From Mameliella sp. MMSF_3455 (GTDB lineage Bacteria > Pseudomonadota > Alphaproteobacteria > Rhodobacterales > Rhodobacteraceae), in the NCBI RefSeq assembly GCF_030733205.1, contig NZ_JASHJL010000034.1, forward strand, positions 1 to 55,104: a DNA stretch of 55,104 nucleotides, read 5' to 3'. The translations under genes and the position numbers were made by a program. The notes under the pieces were generated by a model that worked only from the letters and a program-made list of their open reading frames with translations, did not search any database and was not told where the DNA came from. How positions within the stretch are numbered: the stretch's first letter is position 1; the number at the start of each line of letters is the position of its first letter. Shown here piece by piece: positions 8,388-40,983 of the stretch.

Positions 8388-8651
8388 ATGACCGACGATG
8401 AACGCCCTCGCAGTGATCCGATGAGCGACGATCTGGCCCGGCTGGATCTGGACGCCGATGCGGATGCCTTTCTGGTTATCCGGGCCTGGCACGAAACCGA
8501 TGGCGGGAAATCCTCGGATGAGCACTGGCGAGGGCAGATCAGCCACGGCCAGACCACCAGCAAATTCGTCGGGATCTCCATGCTGTTCGACAGGATCTCG
8601 ACACTGCTTGCCGGATTGGCGCCGCCAACGCGGCCGGAGGACAGGGAATGA
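8388..8651 (+). CDS. Small hypothetical protein, first gene of the eCIS operon
   Basis: The 87-aa acidic protein has no signal peptide or membrane segment. After a charged N-terminus it contains AFLVIRAWHE and HWRGQISHGQT, a short beta-rich core. Similar small proteins with a W-R-G-x-(I/V)-x-H core occur beside injection-system genes, as far as I recall, but no function is known to me. The ATG at 8388 is chosen over the upstream in-frame ATG at 8364 because the latter is followed by non-conserved sequence. It lies 18 bp upstream of the DUF4255 gene and reads in the same direction. Confidence 0.55.
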   Translation: MTDDERPRSDPMSDDLARLDLDADADAFLVIRAWHETDGGKSSDEHWRGQISHGQTTSKFVGISMLFDRISTLLAGLAPPTRPEDRE

Positions 8652-8669
8652 CGTGCGCGAGGTGCCCCA

Positions 8670-9308
8670 ATGGCTGATACCCGTGCCATCATGGCGGTCG
8701 GCGAAGCGATCGCGAACCTGCTGCGCGCCGCCTACGACCCGGCGGATTTTCCGACTCCTCTGGATTTGACCACGACGACAACCGAGCAGATCCGCAATGG
8801 CGCTCCGAATGCCGGAGTGACCCTGTTGATCTATCGGGTCACGCCGTCAGGAACCCATCGCTCCCCCGTCGGGCGCACGGATACGAACGGGCGGCGGTTT
8901 CGCACGCAATTGCCGGTTGATGTTCATATCCTGATGACGGTCTGGGGCACCGAACCCACGTTGCAGCACGCGATTGCCGGTTGGGCAATGCGCACGCTGG
9001 AAGATACGCCCTTGCTGCCGTCCGGCGCCTTGAACGCCGCCGTTGGTGGGTCTTTCCGCGCCGAAGAGGCAGTCGAGCTTGGCCTTGCGGAACTGTCCAA
9101 CGAGGACATGTTCCGGATCTGGGAGGTCCTGAACCTCAACATCTACCAGCTTTCGATTCCCTATGTGGCGCGCACGGTGCGCATCGAGTCGGTCGAATAC
9201 CTGTCCGAGCGCGGAGGCCCGCCAGTGCAGGAGCGACGCCAGGACATCGGCGTTCTGGAGCCCGTCGACGCCTTCAACCCGCCCGCGGACGGGGGGCAAA
9301 GGCCATGA
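8670..9308 (+). CDS. DUF4255 (Pvc16-like) tube cap/terminator protein
   Basis: The 212-aa protein matches the DUF4255/Pvc16 N-terminal family. It opens with a helix (MAVGEAIANLLRAAY), continues with VTLLIYRVTPSGTHR and PVDVHILMTVWG, and has the family-like segment SNEDMFRIWEVL followed by YQLSIPYVARTVRIES. In Afp and PVC particles the Pvc16 protein caps the end of tube and sheath distal to the baseplate. Cap genes often sit at one end of eCIS operons, as here. Its stop overlaps the next start by ATGA, indicating coupling. Confidence 0.85.
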   Translation: MADTRAIMAVGEAIANLLRAAYDPADFPTPLDLTTTTTEQIRNGAPNAGVTLLIYRVTPSGTHRSPVGRTDTNGRRFRTQLPVDVHILMTVWGTEPTLQHAIAGWAMRTLEDTPLLPSGALNAAVGGSFRAEEAVELGLAELSNEDMFRIWEVLNLNIYQLSIPYVARTVRIESVEYLSERGGPPVQERRQDIGVLEPVDAFNPPADGGQRP

Positions 9309-10192
9309 ACGTGCGCATCCTCGAGAGGCTTTCGACGCATTCTGCCCTGGGCATTCGGTTCTGGGACGAGGATTTCGAGCGCCCGGTCGAGGACGCGGTA
9401 ATCGCCACCGCCCGGCCTTGGGGGCAACAAAACCGGCGCGCCGTCATCGCGCAGCGCACGTTTTCCGGGGCGCTGGTCTTCCAGGGGCTGCCCGGGATGC
9501 GAGGTTTCGAACACGACGGACCGCCGGATGCCAATGCCTCGCCCCCCTCACCGCCGACGCAGCGGTTCCTGATCGAGGTCACGGACACCAAGGCGCGCTA
9601 TGCGCCGGCTGCCTTCGGGGTCGACCTGCCCCTGCCCTACGATGGACCCTATCTGGGTGCGGTGCTGCCGTCCCCTGCCCCACCGGGCTTCATCCTGATC
9701 GGTGGGCCGGATCGCCCGCGCGATCCGTCACTGGCCCGCGTCACCGCGACGCTGGCGCGGGCCGCGACCGGAGAACCCGCCGCCTGGGCGCGGATGATCG
9801 TCGTCGATCCCGAAGGCCGGTCCTGGCACGGGATCGCGGGGCCGGACGGCCGATGTTCGGTACAACTTCCCTGGCCGGTGCTGGCCGAGGTTGTGCCGGG
9901 CTCGCCCCCGACGGGGGACGCGTCCTCGCTGCTAAGCCGCAACTGGCCCCTGACCATTGCCGTAGAGGCCGCCGCCGCCCCCCTGCCCCCGATCACGGCG
10001 AGCGAAATACCCGATTACGGCCAGATCCTGTCCCAGCCAAACGCCCAGATCTGGCCCGAGCCGCCGGACGCCTCACCAACGCCGGTGCCGACCCCGACCA
10101 CAACCGCAACGCTCCATTTCGGCGAGACGCTCACGCTGCGCAGCGGCGCTCGTGCCTCCCGCCTCTTCGTGGGCCCAGGCCCATCACCTTAA
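9305..10192 (+). CDS. Uncharacterised eCIS-operon protein, 295 aa
   Basis: Translation begins at the ATG in the ATGA overlap with the DUF4255 gene; the longer open frame upstream is a shadow of that gene. I do not recognise the family. The first ~190 residues look beta-rich (SALGIRFWDEDF, RTFSGALVFQGLPGM, RFLIEVTDTKARYAPAAF, then GFILIGGPDRP). An alanine/proline-rich region follows with TPVPTPTTTATLHFG near the end. A sheath or cap accessory protein, or a surface-exposed particle protein, is plausible from position only. It ends 42 bp before the main sheath gene, where a strong ribosome-binding site begins. Confidence 0.6.
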   Translation: MNVRILERLSTHSALGIRFWDEDFERPVEDAVIATARPWGQQNRRAVIAQRTFSGALVFQGLPGMRGFEHDGPPDANASPPSPPTQRFLIEVTDTKARYAPAAFGVDLPLPYDGPYLGAVLPSPAPPGFILIGGPDRPRDPSLARVTATLARAATGEPAAWARMIVVDPEGRSWHGIAGPDGRCSVQLPWPVLAEVVPGSPPTGDASSLLSRNWPLTIAVEAAAAPLPPITASEIPDYGQILSQPNAQIWPEPPDASPTPVPTPTTTATLHFGETLTLRSGARASRLFVGPGPSP

Positions 10193-10234
10193 CGGAAACG
10201 CAAAGAAATCAAGTTTGATCAGGAGGTCTCATCC

Positions 10235-12208
10235 ATGCCCGAATACCTGGCTCCAGGTGTCTTCGTTGAAGAGGTCAGTTTCCGTCAAAAGACCATCGAA
10301 GGCGTCAGCACCTCCACCACCGGCTTTGTCGGCCCGGCCCGTTTCGGCCCGACCGAGGGCGAACCGCCGCTCTTGACCAGCTTCTCGGACTTCGAGCGTA
10401 TCTACGGGGGGCTTGATGCAATCCGCCCGGACGGAACCGAGGTCCCCAACTATCTGGCTCATGCGGTGCGGTCCTATTTTGATGAGGGCGGCAGGCGGCT
10501 CTACGTGTCGCGGATCTACAACGAGCCGGCTGCCGACAGCCCGCCAACCCATTCGGGCGGTCGGGCGATCTGGCCGGCGCCCGATGCTTCGCCTGCCAAC
10601 CCGGGCTTCACGCTGATGGCGCGCCACCCCGGGCGCGCCGGGAACATGCGGGTGCAAGTGACGATGCGGGTTGGTCAGAACGTGCTGGCGACCGGCGCCA
10701 ACGGGCCAGAGCTGCGCGGCATCCGCCCGTTTGACACGGTGATTGCCGTGAACCTGGCATCGCCACCCCCTGCTTCGCCGGGCACGGTCAACGCCGAATT
10801 CTACTGGGCAGACCGCTTTCGCGACGAGAACACGGGGCGCGAAACCTTTCGCTTGCGTCAGGACAGCGCCGGCACCGAGCCCGGCCCGGGTTCGCCATCG
10901 TGGGTCGATCTGGCGAACGTCTCGGACGTCCGTCTGGTCACCCTGTCGGTTGCCACTTTGCCGCCCGGACGCTTTGCGGACGAGATGGTGTTTGAACGCG
11001 TCGCCTTTCATTCCGAGCATCCGGGCGCGGCAGAGACCGTTTTTGCCCATCACTCCGACAGCCGGGCGACCGAGCTGTTCACGCCGCTGGTGCTGCAGAC
11101 CACAACCGACAACGGCGCCGCTTTGGCTGCGGCCTTTGCCTCGCTCTCCAATGAGGCCGGGCACTCGCTCTTCGAAGTGCTCTCTGCGACGATCGGCGGA
11201 TTGCCGATGCCTGCCGAGCTCGAAGCAGCCAATGCATCGCCAGCACGCACACCTGTCGTGCGCCTGCCCACGGACGCCGAACTGACCGCAACGCTGGTGT
11301 TGCAGGGCGGTTCGGACGGGGGACCACTGGGCAATATCCAGTATCAGGGCGATGAGGACGACCCGAAGTCGGGGCTCGCCGCCTTGGAAGACCTCGAGGA
11401 TATCTCGATCGTCGCCGCCCCGGGTTCGTCGGCCGATGAAGAGGTCAGCCGCGCGGTCATGGGCAGCCTGATCACCCATTGCGAGCGCATGCGCTATCGG
11501 GTGGCGGTGCTGGATGCCGAAGCCGGGATGACACCCGGCGAGGTGCGCGAATTGCGCGGAACGCTCGACAGCACGCGCGCTGCGCTTTACTATCCTTGGG
11601 TCACGGTCGACGACCCGCTGGCCATCGGCGCCCCGATGGAGCTGTCGCTGCCGCCGTCCGGCTTCATGGCCGGGATCTACGCGCGCAACGACGTCGAGCG
11701 TGGGGTCCACAAGGCGCCCGCAAACGAAGTCTTGCGATCCGCGCTGAACTTCGAATTCCTGATCAACACCCGCCAGCAGGAGGCGCTGAACCCCGAGGGG
11801 ATCAACTGTCTGCGCTTCTTCGAGGGGCGGGGGTTCCGGGTTTGGGGCGCGCGCACCGTTTCGTCGGACCCCGAGTGGAAATATCTCAATGTTCGAAGGC
11901 ATTTCGCCTATCTTGAACGGTCGATCGAACGCGGCACGCAATGGGCGGTGTTCGAACCGAACGGTCACCGGCTCTGGTCCAACGTCCAGCGCACGATCGA
12001 GGATTTCCTCTACAACGAATTCGTGTCCGGACGGCTGGCGGGGCGGACCCCGCAGCAGGCCTATTTCGTACGCTGCGACGAAACCACGATGAGCCAGAAC
12101 GACCGGGACAACGGTCGGCTTGTCTGCCTCATAGGGGTCGCGCCGCTCTACCCGGCCGAGTTCGTCATTTTCCGCATCGGACAGAAGACAGCCGACGCGC
12201 GATCCTGA
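10235..12208 (+). CDS. Contractile sheath protein 1 (Afp2-type)
   Basis: The 657-aa protein is the major sheath candidate. It starts with the sheath N-terminus YLAPGVFVEEVS and STTGFVGPARFGPTEGE. Its C-terminal domain has NFEFLINTRQQEALNPEGIN and ends with CLIGVAPLYPAEFVIFRIGQ, the conserved sheath hand-shake end. Compared with compact sheaths of about 350-450 aa it carries roughly 200 extra residues, centred near 95-330, likely an outward-facing domain. A strong Shine-Dalgarno AGGAGG (10221-10226) lies 8 bp before the ATG, consistent with a protein made in many copies. It contracts to drive the inner tube outward. Confidence 0.93.
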   Translation: MPEYLAPGVFVEEVSFRQKTIEGVSTSTTGFVGPARFGPTEGEPPLLTSFSDFERIYGGLDAIRPDGTEVPNYLAHAVRSYFDEGGRRLYVSRIYNEPAADSPPTHSGGRAIWPAPDASPANPGFTLMARHPGRAGNMRVQVTMRVGQNVLATGANGPELRGIRPFDTVIAVNLASPPPASPGTVNAEFYWADRFRDENTGRETFRLRQDSAGTEPGPGSPSWVDLANVSDVRLVTLSVATLPPGRFADEMVFERVAFHSEHPGAAETVFAHHSDSRATELFTPLVLQTTTDNGAALAAAFASLSNEAGHSLFEVLSATIGGLPMPAELEAANASPARTPVVRLPTDAELTATLVLQGGSDGGPLGNIQYQGDEDDPKSGLAALEDLEDISIVAAPGSSADEEVSRAVMGSLITHCERMRYRVAVLDAEAGMTPGEVRELRGTLDSTRAALYYPWVTVDDPLAIGAPMELSLPPSGFMAGIYARNDVERGVHKAPANEVLRSALNFEFLINTRQQEALNPEGINCLRFFEGRGFRVWGARTVSSDPEWKYLNVRRHFAYLERSIERGTQWAVFEPNGHRLWSNVQRTIEDFLYNEFVSGRLAGRTPQQAYFVRCDETTMSQNDRDNGRLVCLIGVAPLYPAEFVIFRIGQKTADARS

Positions 12209-12242
12209 TCGTGCGCTCCAGAAGACGTCATAGGAGACAATC

Positions 12243-12698
12243 ATGGCGACAGAACGCGAAGCGCTTCCCTACAGCCAGTTCAACTTTCTCGTCACGATCG
12301 GAGACGACCAGCCGGACCGGGCCCAGGCCGGTTTCCAGGAAATCTCCGGGATCGGGATGGAGATCAACGTTGCCGAATATCGCGCGGGCAACACCAACGA
12401 CAACACGCCGATCAAGGTCACCGGCACCTACAAGGTCCCCGACATCACGCTGAAACGCGGGCTCATGGGCTACCTGGACCTCTACGGCTGGCTCGACAAT
12501 GTCAGGAACGGCCAGCAGGACGACCTGCGCACGGTGAAGATCGACCTGTTGAGCGAGGATCGCGGCACCGTGGCGATGACCTGGAAGCTCTTGATGGCGC
12601 GGCCGATCAAATACACCGGTCCGTCGCTCAACGGCAAGGGCACCGATGTGGCCGTCGAAGAGCTGGTCCTCGCCGCGCAGCGGATCGAGGTGAGCTAA
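12243..12698 (+). CDS. Inner tube protein 1 (gp19/Hcp-like, Afp1-type)
   Basis: The 151-aa tube protein has the typical order of the phage tail tube family: QFNFLVTIG at the N-terminus, AGFQEISGIGMEINVAEYR, then DITLKRGLMGYLDLYGWL, ending VAVEELVLAAQRIEV. Such subunits stack as hexameric rings inside the sheath to form the lumen through which cargo travels. It follows sheath 1 by 34 bp with AGGAGA upstream of the ATG. Size and motifs agree with Afp1/Pvc1-like major tube subunits. Confidence 0.93.
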   Translation: MATEREALPYSQFNFLVTIGDDQPDRAQAGFQEISGIGMEINVAEYRAGNTNDNTPIKVTGTYKVPDITLKRGLMGYLDLYGWLDNVRNGQQDDLRTVKIDLLSEDRGTVAMTWKLLMARPIKYTGPSLNGKGTDVAVEELVLAAQRIEVS

Positions 12699-12702
12699 GC
12701 CG

Positions 12703-15531
12703 ATGAACCTGCCGCTTGCCAGACGCGCTCCCAGGCTGCCCGGCGTCTATGTCGAAACCGGGCGTCCCCAGCGTGCGGACGCTTTGCCCCGGATGGACGT
12801 GGCAGGCTTTGTCGGCTTTGCGGCGTCAGGGCCGGTGGACGTACCGGTCCCGGTCGAGGATCTGTCGCGCTTCCGCGACATATTCGGGCCGGACGTCGTG
12901 CTGGCGCGCGACCTGGAGAGGCAGACCGATCAGACGAGCCTGCTGGGCCCGGCGGTCGAGGCCTTCTTCGCAAATGGCGGAAGGCGGGCTTTCGTGGTGC
13001 GGGTGGCAGAGCCGGAAGGGCCGCAAACGCTGTCGCTCGCCATTCCGCAACTTGTCGATACATCGCGCATCGGCGCGGTTGCGCTGGCCCGTTCGCCCGG
13101 ACGCTGGATCGCACCGCTTGGAGCTGACACGCGGCTCGTACGGCGGAGATTGCTCCCGTTGATGGGGGGAGGGCTTGTACGGACCAGCGAAGTCCTCTCG
13201 ATCCGGGTCACCCAGGCCGGCGACGCGCCGGTTCCGGGCGATTTGATTGAAGCAACCTTCAACGACGCCGAACTGCTCGCGCTGCTGGTGGTCGACCGGG
13301 TCGAGGGGACCCGGGTCATCGCCCGCGACGACCGGGTCTTCTGGTACCAGCGCCCCGCCTCACCCCCGCCCGAGGGGGCGATTGGCATGGGTGACGACGG
13401 GCTCTTTCCCGCGCCGGATGCAAACGTCGATGCGCTCTTTGCGAGCCCGCCGGAGCCGCAACCGGACAGTCTCAGCGTCCTGACCTTTGACCTTGTCCTC
13501 TGGGAAGGCGCGAGGATCAGCCGCCGTCTGGACGGGCTTGGCTTTGCCGCCGCCCATCCGCGCTACTGGGCGGCCCTGCCCGATGACGCGGCGCATTTTG
13601 GTCCCGCATTCGGGCGCCCGGTGCCGAGCCTTTCTCCGGGCCGTGCGCGGTTCCTGTCCGAGGCTTCGGTCCCGCGGTTTCCCCTGGCAGGACCGGCAGC
13701 CGACCCGAACGGTGTCTGGTTGCCGCATGCCATGAAAACCTATGTCGATCGCGAACGGTGCGCCTTCGCGACCCTGCCCCCGGGCCCCCGGCTGGAGACG
13801 GAGGGGCTGGAGCACTTTTCCAGCGAGATTTTCCTCGACCCGCGTTTTGCGGCGATCCAGACCCATGCACTGTCCGCCGAGCTTGCGGCGCGTCACTCGA
13901 TGGAACTGACCGAGGGCGGGCGACCGCTTCGCGGGCTCCATGCGCTTTACCCGGTGGACGAGGTCGCGATGATCGCGCTGCCGGACGCGGGGCATCGCCC
14001 CTGGAACCGGCGGCTGGTCGCAGCGCCCGCGCCATTGGGTGCGCCCCGTCTCGGCGTGCTGCCGAATGCGCTGGATGCCTTCGACCGGATCGCACTCAGT
14101 TGGACCCCGGTGCATGGCGCGACGCGCTACAGGGTCGAGCTTTCCCCCGATGACAGCTTTGACCCACCCGAGGTCCACATCGTCGAAGCGCCAGAGGCCT
14201 TCGTCCCCCGCGCCCCGGATTGCCCCGCGATTGTCTTCGCGCGGGTGCGCGCCGAAACCGCCAGCGAGATCGGCCCCTGGTCGAATGAGCGCGCCTCGAT
14301 GATCCCCGAGGAAGATTTCGAACCTTGCGCCTACACCGACCCGGACCTGCTGTCGCTTCTGCCAACGCTTGATATCGGCGCGAGCCCCGGCCCGCGTCTA
14401 ACCTGGACGTTCGAAAGCGGCGCGCTCGCACCGGGCGACGTCTTTGAGGTACAGACCGGCCAGGCCCCGACTCTCGGGGACGCAAGAACCACCCTGCTGG
14501 ACCCCGGCACTGTCGACTTCTTCCCTGCCCCGGCCATCGACCGCCCGAGCTACATGCGGGTGCGCGTGCTCCGGGACGAAGTCCGTGGACCCTGGTCGAT
14601 CACGCTGCGGCTTGACCCGGACGCGGTTTCGGCCTTCACCGTGGATCCGAAAGAGGAATACGCCACCGTCGGGACCGCGCCCGAAAGCGGCGAAGAGATC
14701 CTGACCGCCGTCCACCGCGCCGCGATCCGGTTTGCGGCGGCGCGCGCCGATGCGGTCGCACTTCTGTCGATGCCGCGCCACTTCCGCGCGGACGAGGCGA
14801 AGGCACACCTCGCCCGGCTTTCGCCGCTGTTCGAGGATCTGGAGGGCGATCCCGGCCCCGCCGGTATGCTGCGCGTTCCCGCCCTGCGCTTTGGAGAAGA
14901 GACGGCGCTTTCCTATGCTGCGCTGCTCCATGGCTGGATTTCGACGGGCAGCGCCTTCCACCCGCCAGATGGCGCCGCTGCGGGGCTGATCGCGCGGCAG
15001 GCCAATGGGCCGGGGGTCTGGATCGCCTCCGCGAACCTGCCTGTCACGGATGCGCTGGCCCTCACGCCGCACCTCGAGGACGCGACCCTTGCCGATCTGA
15101 TCGCTCATCAGATCAACCCGATCCGCGACAATCCCCGAGGCTTTCTTTTCCTGAATGCCGAGACCCTGTCGGCAAGCGCCGAGCTTAGCCCCCTGCCCGT
15201 GCGCCTTCTCATGATCCTGCTACGCCGCCTCGCCGTGCGTGAAGGCATGGCCTATACGTTCGAACCGAACTCCCCCGATTTCCGTGCCCAGGTGCAGCGT
15301 CGGTTTGAACGCGTGCTCTCGCTGATCCACCAACGCGGCGGATTCGCAGGGGCACGGCCCGTCGAAAGCTTTCGGGTTGTCACCGACAGGAGCGTAAACC
15401 CGCCCGGTGCGATCGAGCTTGGGCGCTTTACCGTCGAACTGCGCGTCGCCCCCTCGCGTCCCATGCGGTTTCTGAACGTGCGCCTGCTGCGCACCGGCGC
15501 TCGGGATCTGGCCGTGGAGGAGGCGACATGA
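12703..15531 (+). CDS. Large second sheath-family protein with inserted Fn3-like domains
   Basis: The 942-aa protein begins RLPGVYVETGRP and ADALPRMDVAGFVGFAASGP, which is a sheath N-terminus. It ends with a sheath C-terminal domain from about residue 670 (AFFANGGRRAF-type motifs earlier, PPGAIELGRFTVELRVAPS near the end). Residues about 445-530 look like a fibronectin type III or related beta-sandwich (RIALSWTPVHGATRYRVELS, then SEIGPWSNE). A second beta domain spans about 555-660. It is roughly twice the size of Afp3/Afp4. As a minor sheath ring near baseplate or cap, its insertions would project outward. Its stop overlaps the second tube gene by ATGA. Confidence 0.85.
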   Translation: MNLPLARRAPRLPGVYVETGRPQRADALPRMDVAGFVGFAASGPVDVPVPVEDLSRFRDIFGPDVVLARDLERQTDQTSLLGPAVEAFFANGGRRAFVVRVAEPEGPQTLSLAIPQLVDTSRIGAVALARSPGRWIAPLGADTRLVRRRLLPLMGGGLVRTSEVLSIRVTQAGDAPVPGDLIEATFNDAELLALLVVDRVEGTRVIARDDRVFWYQRPASPPPEGAIGMGDDGLFPAPDANVDALFASPPEPQPDSLSVLTFDLVLWEGARISRRLDGLGFAAAHPRYWAALPDDAAHFGPAFGRPVPSLSPGRARFLSEASVPRFPLAGPAADPNGVWLPHAMKTYVDRERCAFATLPPGPRLETEGLEHFSSEIFLDPRFAAIQTHALSAELAARHSMELTEGGRPLRGLHALYPVDEVAMIALPDAGHRPWNRRLVAAPAPLGAPRLGVLPNALDAFDRIALSWTPVHGATRYRVELSPDDSFDPPEVHIVEAPEAFVPRAPDCPAIVFARVRAETASEIGPWSNERASMIPEEDFEPCAYTDPDLLSLLPTLDIGASPGPRLTWTFESGALAPGDVFEVQTGQAPTLGDARTTLLDPGTVDFFPAPAIDRPSYMRVRVLRDEVRGPWSITLRLDPDAVSAFTVDPKEEYATVGTAPESGEEILTAVHRAAIRFAAARADAVALLSMPRHFRADEAKAHLARLSPLFEDLEGDPGPAGMLRVPALRFGEETALSYAALLHGWISTGSAFHPPDGAAAGLIARQANGPGVWIASANLPVTDALALTPHLEDATLADLIAHQINPIRDNPRGFLFLNAETLSASAELSPLPVRLLMILLRRLAVREGMAYTFEPNSPDFRAQVQRRFERVLSLIHQRGGFAGARPVESFRVVTDRSVNPPGAIELGRFTVELRVAPSRPMRFLNVRLLRTGARDLAVEEAT

Positions 15532-15983
15532 CCACTCCCTTCACCGCCTTCAATTTCAAGGTCCGCCTCGAGCTTGAGGGCGAAGACGGCATCATCTGCG
15601 ACGGCGCCTTCTCTGAGGTCTCGGGTCTGGAAGCCACGCTGGAGACCGAGACCATCCGCGAAGGCGGCAACAATGCGCGCCAGATCCACCTGGCAGGCGT
15701 CACCAGTTATGGCGAGATCACCTTGAAGCGCGGGATGGCCAAGGGGCTTGGTCTCTGGGCCTGGTTCCGCGCGGTGCAGGAGCGCCGCGAGGCGCGCGCC
15801 CATGGCGAAATCGCGATGCTGTCGGCTGACCGTGAACGCGAGGTGGTGCGCTTCAAGCTCACGGGCTGTCTGCCCGTAAAGCTGAAGGCGCCGGCGTTGA
15901 ATGCCTCGGACGGGCTGATCGCCATCGAAGAAGCCCAGATCGCCTTTGAAACGCTGGATGCGGAGGAGGTGACCGATGCCTGA
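15528..15983 (+). CDS. Inner tube protein 2 (Afp5-type)
   Basis: The second tube-family protein is also 151 aa. It carries FTAFNFKVRLELEGEDGI, FSEVSGLEATLETETIREG, then GEITLKRGMAKGLGLWAWF, paralogous to tube 1 but clearly diverged. In Afp, Afp5 forms the tube-initiating ring that joins the hub to the main tube. Its place directly before the LysM adaptor and hub supports that role. The start lies in an ATGA overlap with sheath 2, and its end overlaps the LysM gene by 8 bp. Confidence 0.9.
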   Translation: MTTPFTAFNFKVRLELEGEDGIICDGAFSEVSGLEATLETETIREGGNNARQIHLAGVTSYGEITLKRGMAKGLGLWAWFRAVQERREARAHGEIAMLSADREREVVRFKLTGCLPVKLKAPALNASDGLIAIEEAQIAFETLDAEEVTDA

Positions 15984-16707
15984 GCCGCAAGCCCTGCTGA
16001 AAGCCCAGATTCAGCCGGTGACCTGGGACGAACAGCAGACCGTGTCGGAGACCGGCGATCCGATCAGCGTCCAGTTCAACCCCGAAACCCTGAAGGTCGC
16101 CTATTCCAACAAGAGCGCAGGCGGCGACCAGCGGGGCGGCTCGGCGATCCAGTTCGTCGGCTCGGGGACGACAAAGCTGACGCTGGACCTTTGGTTCGAC
16201 GTGACGGCCCCGGCGCCCGATCGCCCGGAATCCGAAGGCGAAACCGTCGACGACGTGCGCCGACTGACCCAGCAGGTGGTGCGCTTCATCCAGCCCGAGC
16301 CGAGCGACGAGGAAGGCAAGTTCACGCCGCCCGGAATCCGCTTCCTTTGGGGCACCTTCCTGTTCGAGGGCGTGGTGGACTCGATCAACGAAGAGCTTTT
16401 GCTGTTCTCGGAAGATGGCAAACCGCTGCGCGCGAAAATCGCGCTGGCGCTGTCCAAGCAGGAAATCCAGTTCCAGTTCGGCAATCAGGGCGGCGCCGGG
16501 CTTGGCGGAACGGGGCGTGGCAGCACGCCCCCCACCGCGTCGCAACCCGCCCCCGCCACCCGCGAGGGCGAGAGCGTGCAGGAGGCCGCCGCGCGCGAAG
16601 GCCGCCAGGATGACTGGCAGGACATCGCCCGCCAGAACAACATCGACAACCCGCGCAACCTGCCCGCAGGCACGCCGCTTGACCTTAGCCGACCAGGGAG
16701 ACGCTGA
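15976..16707 (+). CDS. LysM-domain baseplate adaptor (Afp7-type)
   Basis: The 243-aa protein has the CIS LysM-adaptor layout. The N-terminal domain (SVQFNPETLKVAYSNK, then TTKLTLDLWFDV) and the segment FLWGTFLFEGVVDSINEE precede a proline/threonine linker (TPPTASQPAPAT). A C-terminal LysM-like motif follows (GESVQEAAAREGRQ, DWQDIARQNNIDNPRNLPAG). In characterised particles this protein wraps the hub at the tube-baseplate junction. It has no signal peptide, so its LysM is structural rather than for cell-wall targeting. It overlaps both neighbours, with an 8-bp overlap upstream and a shared base (TGATG) downstream. Confidence 0.88.
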   Translation: MPEPQALLKAQIQPVTWDEQQTVSETGDPISVQFNPETLKVAYSNKSAGGDQRGGSAIQFVGSGTTKLTLDLWFDVTAPAPDRPESEGETVDDVRRLTQQVVRFIQPEPSDEEGKFTPPGIRFLWGTFLFEGVVDSINEELLLFSEDGKPLRAKIALALSKQEIQFQFGNQGGAGLGGTGRGSTPPTASQPAPATREGESVQEAAAREGRQDDWQDIARQNNIDNPRNLPAGTPLDLSRPGRR

Positions 16708-16892: not shown

Positions 16893-16901
16893 GGACCAAT
16901 C

Positions 16902-17981: not shown

Positions 17982-17994
17982 GGGAGCGAACCTG

Positions 17995-21118: not shown

Positions 21119-21127
21119 TCAAAGGCC

Positions 21128-28357: not shown

Positions 28358-28361
28358 CGCG

Positions 28362-33726: not shown

Positions 33727-36700
33727 CTCACAAGTCTCGGCGCCCGGCCCGAAAAGTCACTTCTAGCCCTGCACCTTCCAAGGGATCATCCCCCTCCAAG
33801 CCTGCAAAAAGCGGCGCCATTGCCACCCAAGGCCCGGCCTTCGCGATCCCGGGTGTTCAGACCAAGCTCGCCGTCGGAAAGGCCGACAGCCCCTTTGAAC
33901 GCGAAGCCGACCGGGTGGCGGACAAGGTGATCCAGGGCGGCAAGGCTCCGGGCATTACCCCCCTGCCTGCGGACGGTCTCGGCGCGCATGCGCAGCGGGC
34001 CAGCAACAAGGAGGAAACCGAAACCGAGGAAACCGACAAGGCGGAAGAAGAACAGGACACCCAGGCCAAGAAGACCAGCGAAGAAGAGGAAAAGCCCGAC
34101 GAGGAACCGGCCCAAACCAAGATGGCGGGTGGAGAGGAAGAGGAAGAGGCGGCACAGGAGAAATCCGGGGAAGGTGAAGAAAAGGAGGAGGAAGAGGAGG
34201 CCGCACAGCCCAAGTCCGTCGAGGGCGAAGAGGAAGAAAAAACCGCCCAGCCCAAGGTCCAGGATGAGGGCGAACAGGAGACCGCCCAGAAAAAGACTGC
34301 CGGCGCTGAACGCGATCGCTCGGTCGCGCAGGAGGCGGTCCGGACCCCAGGTCGGGGCGACGAACTTGCAAGCGAGGTCCGCGGTCCGATCGAACGCTCG
34401 ACCGGCGCCGACCTGAGCGATGTGCAGGTGCACCAGGACGGCCGCGCAGCCCGCGCCGCAGAAAGCATCGGCGCCCGCGCCTTTACCCACGGGCGCGACA
34501 TCTGGCTTGGCGCTTCGGAAAGCGCGCGTGACACGCGGCTCATGGCCCATGAGGCCGCACATGTGATCCAGCAGACCGGGACCAAGGCAAAAAGCGGCGC
34601 GGCCCGTGCCCGACAAGGCCCCTCGACCCCGGGGCCTTCGATGGCGCCAGCCATGGGTCGGGCAGGCCCAGCCCCGCTTCAGCGCGCCAAGAAGAGCGCC
34701 GCTGCCCCCCCAGCTGCCCCGGCAGGTCCCCCCACCGGTCCCGCAACGGTGACTGCTGGCGGACATTCCGCCACGCTGGCCACTAGCGCCGAGAAATCCG
34801 CGCTGACCGTCAAGGACATCCGCCTGCCCGCCGAAGCGAACAAGCAGTCGGTGTCCGGCCCACTGAAAGCGAAGCGCGAAAAACGGACCTCGGCAGAAAG
34901 CAAGCAACGTTCTATCTGGAAGAGCAAAATCAAGGTCGACGCCAACAAGATAAAGCTCAACCAAGACGAGGGCGTCGAATCCAAGAACGGAACAAAGCGC
35001 TTTTTTCTGAAAGTCGCCAACCAAAAATCCTACGTCATCGGCACCCCCGATCAGATCGCGGCACAATCGCTCATCCCCAACTGGGCCAAGACCGGCAAGA
35101 ACGAGATCTTTGAGGTCGACCACATCCACGAGGTCCAGCTGTCGGGCGACGCCAGCGCGATGAGCAATTTTCAACTGCTGGACCCGGCCACGAACGGTGC
35201 TTCGGGCTCTGCCATACAGGCCGAGATACGCAAGAAGATCGCGGCCGCCGCAACAAAGCTGAAGGCCAAGGCCACGGCGGACGGTGTCCACCCCGCCTTG
35301 ATCAAGCAGCTCGACATGGATGCGGGCGACCTGAAGTCCACGTTCAAGGACGTCACTTTCCAGACTGTCTCCGCCTCGCCCCTGAAGCTTTCGAAATCGC
35401 GCAACAACTTCTGGCTTGTGAGCGAAATCCAGGACGCAAAGCACATCAACACGCTGAAACAGCTGACCAAGGCGGAGGCAAACAAAGCCGATCTGGTCGG
35501 CAGCAACACCAACATCCTGGTCATGCTCGGACGCGGCGCAGGCAAACCGCGACGGATCAACCTTCCAGGCGGACTGGAAAGCCTGCCGACGGGCAAGCCC
35601 AGCTTCAAGAACCCCAAGGGGCTCAACATTACCGGCGTTCAGGGCACCAAAGACGGGATCACGAGCTTCTCGGTCGATCCACACGGCAAAGCCCCGAAGA
35701 TCGACTCGAAAACGACACAGGCCACGCCCTCGATGCTGGGCGGAGACCCCTTCTCCTATTCCCTGATCGATCTGAGCGCCGCGCTGAAGAACAACGTCAA
35801 GATGGTCGGCATGAGCCCGATCGACGTCAAGGAATCCGCGATCGAAAATGACCGGCTGGTGACGCGGGCGGTCCTGTTGCCGACATCGAAGATTTTTCGT
35901 GACGGGCTCGGGATCGACTTGGCGATCAACGGACACCGGCTTGAGCTGTCCAAGACATTCTCGGGCGGGGATTTCGACCTGCCGGGACCGATCAATGTGA
36001 CTGGCAGCGAATTGACGCTGACTGCTGGCGCCGGTGCGGGCGGTGCGTCGCTTTCGGCCACGGGCAAGCTCGACTTCGAGGTCGAGCGTGTCGGCAAGGG
36101 TTATCTTGAAGGCATGGGCCGGATCGGGGCCGAGGCCGGGTTCTCGGTCAAGGGCGGGTTCGAATTCGACCCCGCGCTCTTCAAGGGGGCCAACGCAAAG
36201 ATCGACGTGGCGTATGCCAATGACAAGTTTACCGGGAAAGGCACGCTGAAAATCGGGTCCGATCAAATCAAGGGCATCCAGTCCGCGACCCTCAACGTCA
36301 CCGTCGAAGATGAGACCTGGGAGGCGGCGGGAACGGTCGTGCCCAAGGTTCCGGGTGTCTCCGAAGGTTCGCTTTCAATGAAGTTCGACCCCAAGGGCGG
36401 GTTCGAGATCGCGGGCGAATTGACCCTTGGCAAGGGGATACCAAGGCTGAAAAGCGGCAAGCTCAAGGCCAAGCTGGTCAAGGAAAGCGAGGCCTACAAG
36501 CTGTCGGGAAGCGGCGATGCCGAGCTTGATATCCCCGGCGTCGCCGCCAAGCTTTCGGCCTCTTACGATGATGGCAAGTTCAAGGCCGAGGCCAGTGCCG
36601 GCTATGCGCGCGGGATTGCATCGGGCAAGGTCACCGTCGGCGCGACGAACATGCCCGTCGACCCGGAAACCGGCAAGGTTTCGGACGGCGACCCGGGCGA

Positions 36701-37517
36701 TGCCATAACCATCTTCGGCTCGGGTTCGGTCACGATCAAGTTCACCCCCTGGCTGCAGGGCACCGCAGGATTGAAGATCAAGGCAGACGGCTCGATGGAG
36801 GTCAAGGGCAAGGTCGAACTGCCCGACAGCATCGAGGTCTTCCCCGAGAAGAAGCTGGAGAAGGAGCTTCTGTCGGTCAGCGCCGATATTCCGATCGTCG
36901 GGGTCGCGGTCGCGGGCCAGCGGATCGGAATTTTCCTCAACATCACGGGCGGGCTCACCGCCAAGGCCTCGATCGGCCCGGGCGAGTTGAAAAACGTCTC
37001 GGTCGAAGTGACCTACAACCCCGAAGACGAAAGCTCTGCCAAGATCACCGGATCGGCGCGGTTCGAGGTGCCGGCCGAAGCGGGCCTGAGGCTGACCATC
37101 CAGGGTGCCCTTGGGGCCGGTATTCCGGTGGTTTCGGCCCGCGCCGGTCTGGAACTGGGCGCCGAACTTGGGGTCAAGGGGCTGGCCTCGGCCAATGCCG
37201 AGGTCGAATGGACGCCATCGACCGGCATCTCGATGGAGGCAGACGTGGGCGTCAAGGCCTCGCCCCAGTTCACCTTTGACGTCACGGGCTTTGCCGATGT
37301 GAAGGCAGACCTCTGGCTGACCACGATCGAACTCTATTCCAAGAGATGGAAGCTGGCCTCCTTCACCTATGGCTCCGGCATGGAGGTCGGCGCCAAGCTC
37401 AAGGTGAAGGTCGAAAACAACGAGGTGAAGCCGATCTCGATGAACGACGTCGAAATTACCAAACCCGATATCGACCCCATGCAACTCGCCAAGGGCGTGA
37501 TCAAGCAGGTCGTGTGA
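33723..37517 (+). CDS. DUF4157 eCIS cargo candidate with HNH-nuclease-like core
   Basis: The 1264-aa protein has five parts. Residues 38-72 carry the DUF4157-associated lead VQTKLAVGKADSPFE and EADRVADKVI. Residues 95-190 are glutamate-rich and disordered. Residues 218-285 form DUF4157 with HEAAHVIQQ (HExxH at 276-280). Residues about 395-600 include FEVDHIHEVQL, MSNFQLLDP and ATNGASG. These match the HNH pattern with candidate residues Asp466, His467, Asn482 and Asn491. The remainder, from about 740, is beta-rich repeats (GSGSVTIKFTPWLQG, KVELPDSIEVFPEK). DUF4157 is a known marker of eCIS-loaded toxins. I infer a nuclease effector; cleavage activity and target are not shown by sequence. No immunity gene was recognised next to it. 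Confidence 0.82.
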   Translation: MTHKSRRPARKVTSSPAPSKGSSPSKPAKSGAIATQGPAFAIPGVQTKLAVGKADSPFEREADRVADKVIQGGKAPGITPLPADGLGAHAQRASNKEETETEETDKAEEEQDTQAKKTSEEEEKPDEEPAQTKMAGGEEEEEAAQEKSGEGEEKEEEEEAAQPKSVEGEEEEKTAQPKVQDEGEQETAQKKTAGAERDRSVAQEAVRTPGRGDELASEVRGPIERSTGADLSDVQVHQDGRAARAAESIGARAFTHGRDIWLGASESARDTRLMAHEAAHVIQQTGTKAKSGAARARQGPSTPGPSMAPAMGRAGPAPLQRAKKSAAAPPAAPAGPPTGPATVTAGGHSATLATSAEKSALTVKDIRLPAEANKQSVSGPLKAKREKRTSAESKQRSIWKSKIKVDANKIKLNQDEGVESKNGTKRFFLKVANQKSYVIGTPDQIAAQSLIPNWAKTGKNEIFEVDHIHEVQLSGDASAMSNFQLLDPATNGASGSAIQAEIRKKIAAAATKLKAKATADGVHPALIKQLDMDAGDLKSTFKDVTFQTVSASPLKLSKSRNNFWLVSEIQDAKHINTLKQLTKAEANKADLVGSNTNILVMLGRGAGKPRRINLPGGLESLPTGKPSFKNPKGLNITGVQGTKDGITSFSVDPHGKAPKIDSKTTQATPSMLGGDPFSYSLIDLSAALKNNVKMVGMSPIDVKESAIENDRLVTRAVLLPTSKIFRDGLGIDLAINGHRLELSKTFSGGDFDLPGPINVTGSELTLTAGAGAGGASLSATGKLDFEVERVGKGYLEGMGRIGAEAGFSVKGGFEFDPALFKGANAKIDVAYANDKFTGKGTLKIGSDQIKGIQSATLNVTVEDETWEAAGTVVPKVPGVSEGSLSMKFDPKGGFEIAGELTLGKGIPRLKSGKLKAKLVKESEAYKLSGSGDAELDIPGVAAKLSASYDDGKFKAEASAGYARGIASGKVTVGATNMPVDPETGKVSDGDPGDAITIFGSGSVTIKFTPWLQGTAGLKIKADGSMEVKGKVELPDSIEVFPEKKLEKELLSVSADIPIVGVAVAGQRIGIFLNITGGLTAKASIGPGELKNVSVEVTYNPEDESSAKITGSARFEVPAEAGLRLTIQGALGAGIPVVSARAGLELGAELGVKGLASANAEVEWTPSTGISMEADVGVKASPQFTFDVTGFADVKADLWLTTIELYSKRWKLASFTYGSGMEVGAKLKVKVENNEVKPISMNDVEITKPDIDPMQLAKGVIKQVV
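34005..34292 (+). repeat. Glutamate-rich low-complexity coding segment inside the DUF4157 gene
   Basis: Codons 95-190 of the DUF4157 gene are dominated by GAG, GAA and AAG, giving repeated acidic blocks punctuated by AQPK, AQKK and TAQ triplets (for example EEAAQPKSVEGEEEE). The strand is strongly purine-biased here. The segment is predicted disordered and separates the lead peptide from DUF4157. Similar acidic Q/E linkers occur in other DUF4157 proteins as I recall. Confidence 0.75.
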
Positions 37518-37531
37518 TGGAGGATCAACAA

Positions 37532-38524
37532 ATGAGCGAACCACAATCCGCAATCGACCGCAGCCGCCAGTTCAACAATGCCGCAGCGATGCTGCACATG
37601 AACGGCGAGGCCGAGGCAGCGCGTGCGCAATACGAAGCCGCGCTGGAAGCCGACCCGGAAAACGCCTCGGCGCTGAACAACCTTGGCTTCCTGCTGGCGC
37701 AGGAGGGGCAGATCGACGAGGCGATCGAAGCCTATGACTCCGCGCTCCGGCTCGATCCCGAGAACGTCACATGCCTCACCAACCTTGCCTCGGCCCGGGC
37801 CACACAGGGCGATCTGGAGATGGGCATGACGCTATTGGCGCGTGCCCTGGACATTGCGCCCGATGACCAGCAGGCCTGGGCCAACCTTGGCCGCCTGTCG
37901 CTGGCTGCGGGCGCGTTGGAGCAGAGCGAGAACGCCTTTCGCAACGCGATCTCTCTGTCCGAGCCAAACGTCGACCACCTGGTTCAGCTTGGCGCGGTGA
38001 TCGCGGCCCGGGGCCGGTACGCCGAGGCGATCGAGGTGCTGGAGGCCGCCTGCGCGCTCGACCCGGCCGACGCGGATGCCTGGCGCCAGCTTGGCGTTGT
38101 GCGTTTCGTGCGCCACGATTTCGGCTCGGCCCTCGAGGCGCTCGAGACCGCGCGACGTCTTGCGCCCGAGGACGCCGAGGTGCTGCGCCACCTCCATCTC
38201 ACCAACATCGCCTGCGGAAAGCGGATTGAGGCCGAGGCCGCGCTGAACACGCTGTTGAGGATCGCGCCCCACAGCGCGGGGCCGCTGACCGATCTCGCGA
38301 TCATGCGCCTTGACCAGGGTGCCTTTTCGGCGGCCGTCGAACTGCTGACATCTGCTGCCAGCAAGAATGATGCCGGAGCGCGGACGCGCTTCTACCTGGG
38401 GCTTGCGCAACTCCTTGGTGACCAGCGCACCGAGGGTACCGCAACACTGAAGGCGCTTGCGGCAGAGGGCGGTTCCTACGGCGAAAGGGCGCTGCAACAG
38501 CTTGACGATTTCGGGGCGGCATGA
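37532..38524 (+). CDS. Tetratricopeptide-repeat protein at the end of the eCIS operon
   Basis: The 330-aa protein is made of about nine TPR units, for example AARAQYEAALEADPENASAL, EAIEAYDSALRLDPENVTCL and EAIEVLEAACALDPADADAW. There is no signal peptide, so it is probably a cytoplasmic scaffold or chaperone. I choose the ATG at 37532 because GGAGG lies 8 bp upstream; the alternative ATG at 37517 lacks spacing for a ribosome-binding site. It follows the cargo candidate by 14 bp and overlaps the glycosyltransferase-like gene by ATGA. A role in cargo folding or in supporting the downstream enzyme is inference. Confidence 0.82.
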   Translation: MSEPQSAIDRSRQFNNAAAMLHMNGEAEAARAQYEAALEADPENASALNNLGFLLAQEGQIDEAIEAYDSALRLDPENVTCLTNLASARATQGDLEMGMTLLARALDIAPDDQQAWANLGRLSLAAGALEQSENAFRNAISLSEPNVDHLVQLGAVIAARGRYAEAIEVLEAACALDPADADAWRQLGVVRFVRHDFGSALEALETARRLAPEDAEVLRHLHLTNIACGKRIEAEAALNTLLRIAPHSAGPLTDLAIMRLDQGAFSAAVELLTSAASKNDAGARTRFYLGLAQLLGDQRTEGTATLKALAAEGGSYGERALQQLDDFGAA

Positions 38525-40983
38525 CGGCGAAGCACGACATCAGGGCCTGGCGCAATTGCCACGCGGGTGAAACGATCCTCGTCTGCGGCTGTGGCACCTC
38601 GCTAACGGACCTCACGAGCAAGCCCGAGATCACGACGATCGGCGTGAACGACATCGGGCGGCACTTTGATCCGGACTATCTTGTCGTGCTGAACCCCAAG
38701 TCACAGTTCAAGCCCGAACGGTTCACCGCAATCGAGGCCACGCGCGCGCGCGCAGTCTTCTCGTCCGTCGCCGGCTTCAGCTTGCCGGGGGTGGAGGTTG
38801 TGCCGCTGCGCCTTGGCAAGCGCGGAGGGACCGAGGTGTCTGCCGATGGGCGCATCCCCTACACCCGGAACTCGCCCTACGTCGCACTGACGCTTGCGCT
38901 GTTCTTCGGAGCGAAGCGCGTAGGCCTCCTTGGGGTCGATTTCACCGAAGATCATTTCTTTGGCAAGACCGGCCCCCATCCGCTCGCCCGCGAATTGCGC
39001 GCGATCGACAAGGAGTACCGCAGGCTCTTCGAATTGGCCGCGCAGAATGGCGTCGAGATCGTGAACCTCTCGCGCCGAAGCCGCCTGAGTGCTCTTCCCA
39101 AGGCCGACCTCGCGGGTTTCGTGGCGCCCCGCAGAACGCCGACGCGGGTCCTGCACATCGCTTCGACCAATTGCGCCGGGGCGATCTGGAACCTGCACCA
39201 ACTGATGCAGGCCGACCCGCGTTTCGAAAGCAGGGTTGCGACCGCCTCACCCGTGACCCGTGGGCGGTCCAAGCCACGGACCTTTCCCCATGATCTGCTT
39301 TGGAGCCAGAAGTCCGCCGTGCAGGCCGAGATCGAACGTGCCGACATTTTGCATTTCCACAACTTCGTCGATGCAAAAAGCCCGACTTTGTCGCAGTTCG
39401 CGGGCGCAATGCGCGGCAAGCGCGCGGTGCTGCAGGTCCACAGCGAGCCCGCTGTGCTCGCCCCGCATTTTCGGGGGCGCGACCCGGTCACACGCACGGA
39501 CATTCCGGTTCTGGTCATTGCCCAGAAACACGCGCGCTTCTACCCGCGGGCGACGCCGGTGCTGAACGCGATGGATCCGGCGCGCTTTACCCCGCAGGGG
39601 GCGAACAACGGTTTTGGCGGCGCCCTGCCCCGCGTCGTCTTCACGCCTTCTGACCTTCACGACTATCCGCAGACCCCGCCAACCTGCCGTGGCAAGGGCT
39701 ATCGGGCCACGCGCGCAATCCTCGAGCGGTTGGCCCGATCGGGTAAGATCCAGCCGGTCATCGGCTTCGATCTCAGCCATAGAGAGGCGCTGGCCCTGTC
39801 GGCAGGCGCCGCGGCCAAGATCGACGAGTGCGTGACCGGGGGTTACCACCTGACCTCGCTGGAAGCGCTGTCTCAAGGCTTGGCAACCTTCGCCTGGCTC
39901 GACGAGGCCACCCGCCAGCTCCTTGCCAGGATGACAGGATCCAACGAGACCGCGCTGCCCTGGGTATCCGTCAAACTCGACGCGCTGGAGGCCAAGTTGA
40001 CCGAGATGGCGCATGCGCCCGAGAGCTTTGCCAAGGCCGGCGAGGCCGGTCGTGCCTGGATGCTGCGGCACTGGACACCGAATGCGGTCCTCGACCCGAT
40101 CCTCAAGGTGTATGAAACGGAGGCGTGCAGGGGCGTGCGCCCGGTTCGGTCACCGCCTCGCGCCCCGGTCTGTGCGACCGGTCCCGCCCCGGATACGCCC
40201 GGCGCCGACGGGGCCGTGCGGGGCCATGTCAAGGGATCGAAACACCCCAGACGGTCTGAAGACTTTGAGCAGCGTGTCTACCTTTCCGCCAAGCTGCTTG
40301 CCGCCCGCGGAACGGCGCAAGGCCGCGTCGCTCATGTGTTGGGCAACGGGCCTTCGCTTGCAGACATAGATCTGGCACCCCTGCGGGGGGACATCGTGAT
40401 CGGTGTCAACGCCGCGCAGATCCTGGCGTCGCGCCTTGGGCGCGCGTTTGATTACTACTGCGTGTCTGACCGCCGCTTTCTGGCAACCTCTGAGGGTCAC
40501 GAAATGGCCAGGGCCGCGAAGAACGCAACCCGGGTCTTTGCGGGCTATTGCGCGGGTTTCCTGAAGGACGAGGCCGAGATCAACTATGTCCGTATCCTGC
40601 CCGGAGATGGCGCCTCAGACGATCTTGCCAGCGGGCTCCACCACGGCTGTTCGGTCGCGCTGTTTGCGGCCCAACTCGCGGCCTGGCTCGGGGCCGATGA
40701 GATCCGCCTGCACGGGATGGAGTGCAACTACGATGCCGGGCGTTTCTATTCAGGTGCCGGGTCCAAGGCCCGCAGGCCCGACCCCGGAACCTACCCGCGC
40801 GTGGCCCGGTCGGCGGAAGCCCTGGCCGCCCTCCTGGCCCGAAGTGGGCGGGTTCTGAGCGTTTCCGGCCCGTCCCGCCTCACCGGGTCTTTCGGCTCCC
40901 CCGCGGTCCAGGGCATCAAGGCCGTTCCGGTGGTGCACAGTAGGGCGCACCCGAAGGTCGCCCAAGCGCTCGGGGAGGATTGA
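38521..40983 (+). CDS. Three-domain glycosyltransferase-like protein, last gene of the eCIS operon
   Basis: The 820-aa protein contains two similar Rossmann-like domains flanking a GT-B domain. The N-terminal domain has LVCGCGTSLTDL and TIGVNDIGRHFDPDYLVVLN. The C-terminal domain has HVLGNGPSLADIDL and VIGVNAAQILASRLG. Both carry a G-x-G-x-S-L motif like DUF115/sialyltransferase-type enzymes. The central part (about 210-540) resembles GT4 transferases: LHIASTNCAGAIWNL, ILHFHNFVD, PVLNAMDPARFTP, and the GGYHLTSLEALSQGLATF region. Its ATGA overlap with the TPR gene and the common direction place it in the operon. Glycosylation of fibres or cargo is speculative; a surface-polysaccharide role unrelated to the particle is the main alternative. 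Confidence 0.72.
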   Translation: MTAKHDIRAWRNCHAGETILVCGCGTSLTDLTSKPEITTIGVNDIGRHFDPDYLVVLNPKSQFKPERFTAIEATRARAVFSSVAGFSLPGVEVVPLRLGKRGGTEVSADGRIPYTRNSPYVALTLALFFGAKRVGLLGVDFTEDHFFGKTGPHPLARELRAIDKEYRRLFELAAQNGVEIVNLSRRSRLSALPKADLAGFVAPRRTPTRVLHIASTNCAGAIWNLHQLMQADPRFESRVATASPVTRGRSKPRTFPHDLLWSQKSAVQAEIERADILHFHNFVDAKSPTLSQFAGAMRGKRAVLQVHSEPAVLAPHFRGRDPVTRTDIPVLVIAQKHARFYPRATPVLNAMDPARFTPQGANNGFGGALPRVVFTPSDLHDYPQTPPTCRGKGYRATRAILERLARSGKIQPVIGFDLSHREALALSAGAAAKIDECVTGGYHLTSLEALSQGLATFAWLDEATRQLLARMTGSNETALPWVSVKLDALEAKLTEMAHAPESFAKAGEAGRAWMLRHWTPNAVLDPILKVYETEACRGVRPVRSPPRAPVCATGPAPDTPGADGAVRGHVKGSKHPRRSEDFEQRVYLSAKLLAARGTAQGRVAHVLGNGPSLADIDLAPLRGDIVIGVNAAQILASRLGRAFDYYCVSDRRFLATSEGHEMARAAKNATRVFAGYCAGFLKDEAEINYVRILPGDGASDDLASGLHHGCSVALFAAQLAAWLGADEIRLHGMECNYDAGRFYSGAGSKARRPDPGTYPRVARSAEALAALLARSGRVLSVSGPSRLTGSFGSPAVQGIKAVPVVHSRAHPKVAQALGED

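Follow-up and report, generated by a model that had tools for sequence, protein, structure and literature searches.

In the window analyzed here, a 55,104-nucleotide stretch of Mameliella sp. MMSF_3455 (contig NZ_JASHJL010000034.1), 22 consecutive plus-strand genes (g1 to g22; positions 8388 to 40983, a 32.6-kb block) form a genuine, complete operon of the extracellular contractile injection system (eCIS) type, known here from its genes alone. The operon belongs to a widespread, little-studied eCIS lineage with an ordinary-looking core. One of its products, g12 (18699 to 20729), is encoded between the spike and gp25 genes and represents a conserved, apparently unnamed family with one C-terminal membrane-type segment; another, g22 (38521 to 40983), is a multidomain glycosyltransferase-like protein encoded by the last gene. 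With even confidence, we propose that g12 sits at the spike end and inserts into a membrane, slightly more likely that of the target than that of the producer, with g22 probably glycosylating the particle.

The operon is compact, with 21 gene junctions of -8 to +42 bp (including ATGA, TGATG, and TAATG overlaps) and a coding share of 99.7%, in agreement with an earlier note on this DNA that had described 22 same-strand, tightly joined genes. Pfam matches confirm the parts named there: sheath, tube, adaptor, hub, spike, gp25, J, and I stand together in one operon, as expected of an eCIS, and the AAA+ ATPase, DUF4255 cap, and DUF4157/eCIS_core protein that make up the eCIS signature are all present. 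A Pfam scan of the 38 genes called in the window matched no family of head, terminase, lysis, or integrase proteins; outside the window, the search covered the sheath family alone, and in the whole genome (5.71 Mb in 111 contigs) Phage_sheath_1 matches are limited to g4 and g6, both in this operon. A degenerate prophage or R-tailocin would have a tail of shared ancestry, and 185 deposited phage records do match the sheath, always at <60% identity and over less than 80% of its length. Such an origin is highly improbable in view of the AAA+, DUF4255, and DUF4157 genes, the lack of head, lysis, and integrase families among the called genes, and the 14 IMG/VR contigs with a g12 match that are filed as viral, all of which carry the eCIS core (head genes were not searched there). 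The complete core, the CIS-type sheath relatives, and the core order kept by relatives likewise favor an eCIS over a prophage, as the note had held. Its suggestion of an undescribed subtype (eCIS types were reportedly defined in a 2019 paper by Chen) goes too far where gene order as such is concerned, because the same core order occurs in relatives and on Rhodococcus, Roseomonas, and Cereibacter plasmids. What stands is that the membrane-segment protein, which is real and corresponds to g12, and the glycosyltransferase-like gene, which is supported by the domains of g22 homologs, both recur among relatives.

The segment in g12 has a mean hydropathy of 2.74 over 19 residues, a value reached by 5 of 2000 residue shuffles, and is the sole strong hydrophobic segment of the operon; relatives were scored at a threshold of at least 2.4 in a 19-residue window. 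An AlphaFold model (predicted local distance difference test [pLDDT] score, 79.9; predicted template modeling [pTM] score, 0.61) has a folded, strand-rich body with a helical insert and a single hydrophobic C-terminal helix of 32 residues (model residues 634 to 665). No family in Pfam, PHROG, or NCBIfam matched g12, a PDB search by sequence gave nothing better than an E value of 0.3, and a fold search with the model found no match. Relatives of the operon were collected by a J-alignment scan of named genomes, and the best 80 of 252 were kept as loci, clipped at 10-kb flanks. In 53 of these 80 loci, g12 was matched by phmmer, and 51 of the 53 matches carry a segment of at least 2.4 (median, 3.01); none of the open reading frames (ORFs) matched to any other component reached 2.4. 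Judged by position, from the most hydrophobic ORF in any plus frame, the slot between spike and gp25, which could be scored in 73 of the 80 loci, holds a segment in 67 of these 73, and 49 of the 67 also have a g12 sequence match. The segment lies in the longest slot ORF in 56 of the positive slots and in a g12-matching ORF beside a longer one in 9 more; it is firm in 65 loci, with L148 resting on a second long ORF and L147 doubtful. Nine phyla have the slot segment, and six of these have a recognizable g12 sequence. A 52-row g12 alignment covers both body and helix and contains the conserved blocks LKL.QP..R.Y, FFDPDAP.R.IRI.LP, and S.SIPI.TI.A.IL; the family alignment A2 comprises the window together with 44 locus rows out of 51 collected. 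The flank C-terminal to the segment is more positive than the N-terminal flank in 43 of 52 cases, less so in 2, and equal in 7 (mean net charge, +0.33 versus -1.50). All 14 g12-bearing IMG/VR contigs (in L195 the match spans just 25 residues) have sheath, tube, hub, spike, and gp25 matches in eCIS order. These contigs (L182 to L195) are filed as viruses, and virus collections thus appear to contain misfiled CIS loci. Ten actinobacterial loci (L129, L130, L132 to L134, L137, L143, L147, L148, and L150) have a longer ORF beside the hydrophobic slot protein, which in seven of them matches g20.

Other systems fill the slot differently. It is occupied by a PAAR protein in Haloferax, Rhodococcus WB1, and the same-family genome G144, whereas S. 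clavuligerus has no gene there. The slot proteins of G105, G226, G132, and Cereibacter are, judging by their motifs, presumably PAAR-like DUF4150 proteins with a partner. Roseomonas (L070, 18845 to 19603) and G126 have a small, weakly hydrophobic slot protein of another kind, ~250 amino acids long, which is perhaps a third slot solution. Five single-sequence phmmer queries for PAAR/DUF4150 gave no match in the 80 loci, with a modest control in that three of the five come from loci that they then match and only G144 and Cereibacter are independent positives. No operon gene of the window matched PAAR either. A PAAR tip is a usual but not strict feature of eCIS and is missing in some of them; the S. 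coelicolor CIS has no Cis10 (PMC10066040).

Protein g22 matches the PHROG sialyltransferase family phrog_4603 (7.2e-12) and, below the cutoff, the MptE-like/DUF115 Pfam family (9e-06; 26 of 34.6 cutoff bits); its structure model is of too low quality for use (pLDDT, 36). Among 31 lineage genomes drawn from those behind the 80 loci, six have strong homologs (E values of 7.4e-53 to 1.8e-78), of which five are encoded downstream of the AAA+ gene on the same contig; the contig of the sixth starts with homologs of g18 and g19. Solimonas soli is one strain that carries a g22 gene. One IMG/VR contig repeats the series g17-g19-g20-g22, and all of these strong homologs stand at the end of eCIS operons. 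The interval between the ATPase gene and the g22 homolog contains a DUF4157-type match in 4 of 7 cases and a large unmatched gene in 3 of 7; the TPR gene g21 had no match in the six loci with a g22 homolog. In 294 other same-family genomes, g22 matches were found in 8, all short and weak (best E value, 5.5e-6). Glycan-type domains (Glycos_transf_1-type, Glycos_transf_2, and Capsule_synth) occur in five of the six scanned homologs, two homologs have methyltransferase domains as well, and L167 has no Pfam match. In an acidobacterial eCIS locus (L172, 14001 to 20000), the final frame, of >2000 amino acids, joins a methyltransferase, a g22-type, and a GT2 domain in one chain. Another 38 IMG/VR contigs (L197 to L234) encode the N-terminal domain of g22 by itself, as a protein of ~170 to 290 amino acids, two of them >300 kb, with no eCIS matches in the fetched flanks; at an E value of 1e-5, the domain was found in none of the deposited phages or plasmids. 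A large phage is a possible source of the eCIS enzyme.

By analogy with known eCIS, the sheath and tube would assemble on a gp25/J/I baseplate with the DUF4255 protein as the cap, and the AAA+ ATPase g19 would load the DUF4157 protein g20. Building on the components, their order, and their conservation, all of which were observed, we infer from position and sequence that g12, encoded where other lineages encode a PAAR spike tip, is located at the spike end and that its single C-terminal helix would be driven into a membrane upon docking or firing. We slightly favor the target's membrane over the producer's own inner membrane, on which Streptomyces, haloarchaeal, and thylakoid CIS dock, because g16 and g17 look Cis13-like and because the charge bias fits a C-terminal tail that ends in a cytoplasm entered from outside. 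Were g12 instead a producer-side tether, the particle would stay in the cell and dock on its own inner membrane in a cytoplasmic or type VI secretion system (T6SS)-like manner rather than being released. The flank charges are opposite to those that the positive-inside rule for membrane topology predicts for a large cytoplasmic N-terminal body, which argues against a simple tail anchor on the producer's side and favors either a hairpin or a segment that enters from outside. Moreover, g16 and g17 weakly resemble fiber-position proteins, and g12 differs in place and build from the known tethers as they are described. Nevertheless, membrane proteins in CIS clusters have precedent in CisA, the Cis13 of thylakoid-anchored CIS, and Hbor_38620, and the sheath is closest to PDB 8bky/9gtp and J to 9gtp, which presumably represent the cytoplasmic CIS of Streptomyces, with subunit numbers that fit PMC12237407; we consider a tether less likely than not. 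The hydrophobic C-terminal helix would also suit a membrane-inserting, possibly pore-forming effector that rides on the spike as cargo and stays behind in the target, and tape-measure-related CIS effectors with transmembrane helices (Tme and Sle1) have been published. Such a nonstructural role is unlikely, given that the same slot beside the baseplate genes is kept across phyla, whereas cargo varies, and that the N-terminal motifs are conserved as well.

As for g22, it would, together with g21, probably glycosylate the particle, most likely its fibers or cargo. An injected glycosyltransferase effector would fit its place downstream of the gene or genes after the ATPase in seven relatives (with the intervening DUF4157 matches and large unmatched genes counted above), and genes adjoining DUF4157 genes are often effectors (PMC8213781). 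The homologs, however, are multi-enzyme chains of up to 2000 amino acids and more that look like glycan-building enzymes, and eCIS_core was found in none of the six that were scanned; a modifying role is favored because of this size and multi-enzyme build, and an effector role appears doubtful. Several points weigh against the proposal of a membrane-inserting spike-end g12 and a glycosylated particle. The hydrophobic segments were called on a simple scale rather than by a trained predictor, and in 18 of the 67 positive slots, which have no phmmer match to g12, homology is by position only. Six of the 73 slots have no segment (L110, 1.19; L112, 1.96; L115, 2.23; L119, 1.63; L122, 2.38; and L124, 2.24), the absence being clear in L110 and L119, with L112 as one more and the other three just under the threshold; 11 loci have an extra, longer slot ORF, which in 7 of them matches the DUF4157 protein g20. 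The spike-tip placement of g12 is predicted from gene order, g12 itself having no sequence or fold match, and we know of no exact precedent for a needle tip that bears a folded protein of this size. Both placement and membrane insertion are predictions, g22 occurs in a minority of relatives (6 of 31), and glycosylation of a CIS particle is an unproven, putative step. The broader idea that a multiphylum CIS class replaced the PAAR tip with a membrane-inserting g12 family, some members being glycosylated by the g22 of their own operon, is put forward as a tentative one that we rather doubt.

Whether a CIS kills neighboring cells, enters a host, or brings about the death of its own cell depends on how it engages membranes. 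The CIS membrane parts CisA, Cis13, and Hbor_38620 are, as reported, each confined to one lineage, whereas the g12 slot segment spans nine phyla. If the broader idea of a multiphylum class is true, g12 and g22 together would be an independent solution to membrane recognition or entry by CIS, and this would be, to our knowledge, the first CIS with a dedicated glycosylation enzyme, the operon-encoded glycosyltransferase suggesting particle glycosylation as a possible further layer. As sequence markers, the two proteins might also be used to sort CIS clusters. Because the lineage includes named Caulobacter, Sphingomonas, and Novosphingobium strains, the role of g12 is testable in culturable relatives.

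The closest known systems are an eCIS of an uncultured Tateyamaria (L073/L164-L165), with the same order from the sheath to the AAA+ gene (g12 included) and a g22 homolog at its end, and IMG/VR contig 3300000362_000008 (L182), with the same order from the cap to g16, where the stretch ends. Over its best segment, the Tateyamaria J (L073) shares 47% identity with that of the window; the g12 of L182 shares 56%. Both systems are uncharacterized, and the Tateyamaria locus differs in having another gene after the ATPase and no match to the TPR protein g21. Among solved structures, the best sheath and J relatives would belong to the S. coelicolor CIS (subtype IId, cytoplasmic), if PDB 8bky and 9gtp are that system, as we presume and as the subunit numbers in PMC12237407 also fit. 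The solved S. coelicolor-type structure has one sheath (Cis2) and one VgrG-like spike (Cis8), whereas this operon has two sheaths (g4 and g6) and a separate GPD hub and gpV spike; the former feature is taken from the description of that structure and from the S. clavuligerus locus, the subtype of which is assumed, and may not hold subtype-wide. The gene for the S. coelicolor membrane protein CisA follows the baseplate genes, and in CisA the membrane segment is followed by a conserved domain (PMC12237407); this operon, unlike that CIS, has a membrane-segment protein between spike and gp25. A Rhodococcus opacus plasmid eCIS (NZ_CP095404, L069) likewise has a cap, two sheaths, and a split hub and spike, and its slot protein, of 552 amino acids with a hydrophobic segment of 2.88, aligns to g12 at an E value of 6e-07 in a single comparison. 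It differs in having DUF4157 genes inside the cluster after the second sheath, no glycosyltransferase listed in the stretch, and a J that is 33.5% identical.

In the thylakoid-anchored CIS of Anabaena, Cis13 has a C-terminal membrane helix. Both g16 and g17 match CIS13_fam weakly but, unlike that Cis13, have no membrane segment (maximum hydropathy, 1.26 and 1.35), the segment lying in g12 instead. The haloarchaeal CIS/T6SS (clade IIa) is a contractile system with a putative membrane anchor, Hbor_38620, which has six predicted helices and is encoded upstream (PMC11566945); a Haloferax larsenii locus has a PAAR protein in the slot. In the S. davawensis CIS group, the gene for a long, tape-measure-like DUF4157 effector is described as preceding the baseplate genes, and the tip as PAAR-like, whereas the DUF4157 gene here is downstream of the AAA+ gene and PAAR is not matched. 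According to a 2026 paper on the Chloroflexota/Deinococcota clade, close cisA homologs are absent in Roseiflexus and the mechanism may differ; g12-type proteins may conceivably be one answer.

The best 80 of the 252 relatives span 12 phyla, namely, Pseudomonadota (31 loci), Actinomycetota (22), Acidobacteriota (10), Chloroflexota (7), Myxococcota (2), Gemmatimonadota (2), and six others with one each. Of the 80 loci, 49 have two or more sheath-type ORFs, and 60 gave a match to every one of adaptor, hub, spike, gp25, J, and I. A quick tree of 95 J proteins pairs the window with the uncultured Tateyamaria (support, 98) inside a 43-row clade (support, 99); the Rhodococcus opacus plasmid falls with most of the remaining relatives in a group of 35 rows. 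Outside both groups stand the plasmid references from Deinococcus, Haloferax, Oscillatoria, S. clavuligerus, Rhodococcus WB1, Cereibacter, and Roseomonas. Chloroflexota stand next on this tree, which suggests horizontal transfer. Deeper conclusions call for caution, given the quick tree method and the long rows, and the 43-row and 35-row groups are not shown to be one clade. The slot segment requires at least seven changes on this tree over 86 scored rows, 68 with and 18 without it (9 rows were unscored); 12 of the negative rows are outside (6 of them set by hand from annotation) and 6 inside. Within the same family, a sheath match was found in 39 of 295 sampled genomes, our own included, the next best being 50% identical over part of the sheath. 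Loci from 15 same-family genomes, some with the core order, gave no match to g12, g21, or g22, with several stretches ending at contig edges. Other same-family eCIS loci (G035, G153, G213, G230, G250, and G071) each have one sheath match and two to three DUF4157-type matches in the fetched stretches.

The remaining genes, all on the plus strand, begin with g1 (8388 to 8651), which encodes an 87-amino-acid protein without a Pfam or PHROG match, and g2 (8670 to 9308), the DUF4255/Pvc16 tail-terminator cap (PF14065, 2.9e-27). The component adjoining the cap, g3 (9305 to 10192), matched no family in Pfam, PHROGs, or NCBIfam scans; its homologs adjoin the sheath gene in IMG/VR contigs L182, L189, L190, and L191. 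The main contractile sheath is g4 (10235 to 12208; PF04984, 6.3e-24; PF17482, 2.5e-12), the best solved relatives of which, PDB 8bky (3.7e-105), 9ezm (7.1e-104), and 8bl4 (1.3e-102), bear the bare label "phage tail sheath." It is followed by tube protein 1 (g5, 12243 to 12698; PF06841, 4e-33) and by a second, larger sheath of 942 amino acids (g6, 12703 to 15531; phrog_23, 9.2e-26), whose Pfam sheath score is below the cutoff (PF04984, 6.9e-05; 23.2 versus 31.4 bits). Tube protein 2 (g7, 15528 to 15983; PF06841, 4.6e-32) is the probable tube initiator. The LysM-type adaptor (CIS_tube; g8, 15976 to 16707; PF19266, 1.2e-25) owes its label to the annotation of homologs, a LysM domain not being matched in g8 itself. 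The 61-amino-acid protein g9 (16707 to 16892) has a conserved position: its sequence was matched in 2 of 80 loci, and small unnamed genes adjoin the adaptor gene on L069 to L071. The baseplate hub (GPD; g10, 16902 to 17981; PF05954, 4.7e-13) and gpV-type spike (OB; g11, 17995 to 18705; PF04717, 1.9e-25) precede g12, and the gp25 baseplate wedge (g13, 20726 to 21118; PF04965, 8.9e-21), Baseplate J/Cis11 (g14, 21128 to 23347; PF04865, 4e-07; PDB 9gtp, 3.9e-43), and the Tail_P2_I/Cis12-like wedge (g15, 23355 to 26165; PF09684, 8.2e-06; PDB 9gtp_E, 1.7e-4) follow it.

Next come g16 (26162 to 28357), a Cis13-like fiber or baseplate periphery protein (CIS13_fam in NCBIfam, 3.8e-09), and g17 (28362 to 29984), a second Cis13-like protein (CarboxypepD_reg PF13620, 2e-08; CIS13_fam, 3.4e-08), with CIS13_fam scores of 36 and 33 bits that are far below the cutoff of 370. 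A helix-hairpin-helix (HhH) fiber, as the earlier note had labeled g16, is unproven, the possible HhH at its C terminus scoring 19.1 bits to HHH_3 against a curated cutoff of 27. The variable-length protein g18 (29984 to 31600) is in the Afp14 (tape-measure) position; its homologs are encoded directly upstream of the ATPase gene and have a conserved C terminus. A tape-measure role is inferred from this position, since of 16 g18 family members none matched a tape-measure family and 1 matched GETHR repeats. After the AAA+ ATPase of the Afp15/Pvc15 type (g19, 31600 to 33726; PF00004, 2.5e-20) comes the DUF4157/eCIS_core protein g20 (33723 to 37517; PF13699, 3.1e-22), in which no other family was matched. 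It is probable cargo, and its layout also includes a Glu/Lys-rich linker, an HNH-like motif candidate, and a repetitive C terminus; the label of an HNH-like cargo given to it in the note is likewise unproven, no Pfam or NCBIfam nuclease family matching that stretch. The repetitive part (residues ~736 to 1257) is 26 to 28% identical to proteins of distant eCIS in same-family genomes G105 and G132. The TPR protein g21 (37517 to 38524; PF13414, 2.5e-34) separates g20 from g22.

Upstream of the operon, g0 (7357 to 8151, plus strand) encodes a BTAD-domain transcriptional regulator (PF03704, 3.9e-23) and is likely the regulator of the operon. BTAD is listed as an eCIS "shell" domain (PMC8213781), and BTAD genes adjoin the Rhodococcus and S. 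clavuligerus eCIS loci too. A consensus scan placed a terminator-like hairpin with a T-run between g0 and the operon (8187 to 8203, plus strand), with one such hairpin observed versus 1.2 expected by chance and thus no excess. The flanking genes belong to ordinary cellular families, including molybdopterin- and NADH-binding oxidoreductase subunits, a chorismate-binding enzyme, an aminotransferase, LysR, an M24 peptidase, TctABC, a CoA-transferase, and PepSY.

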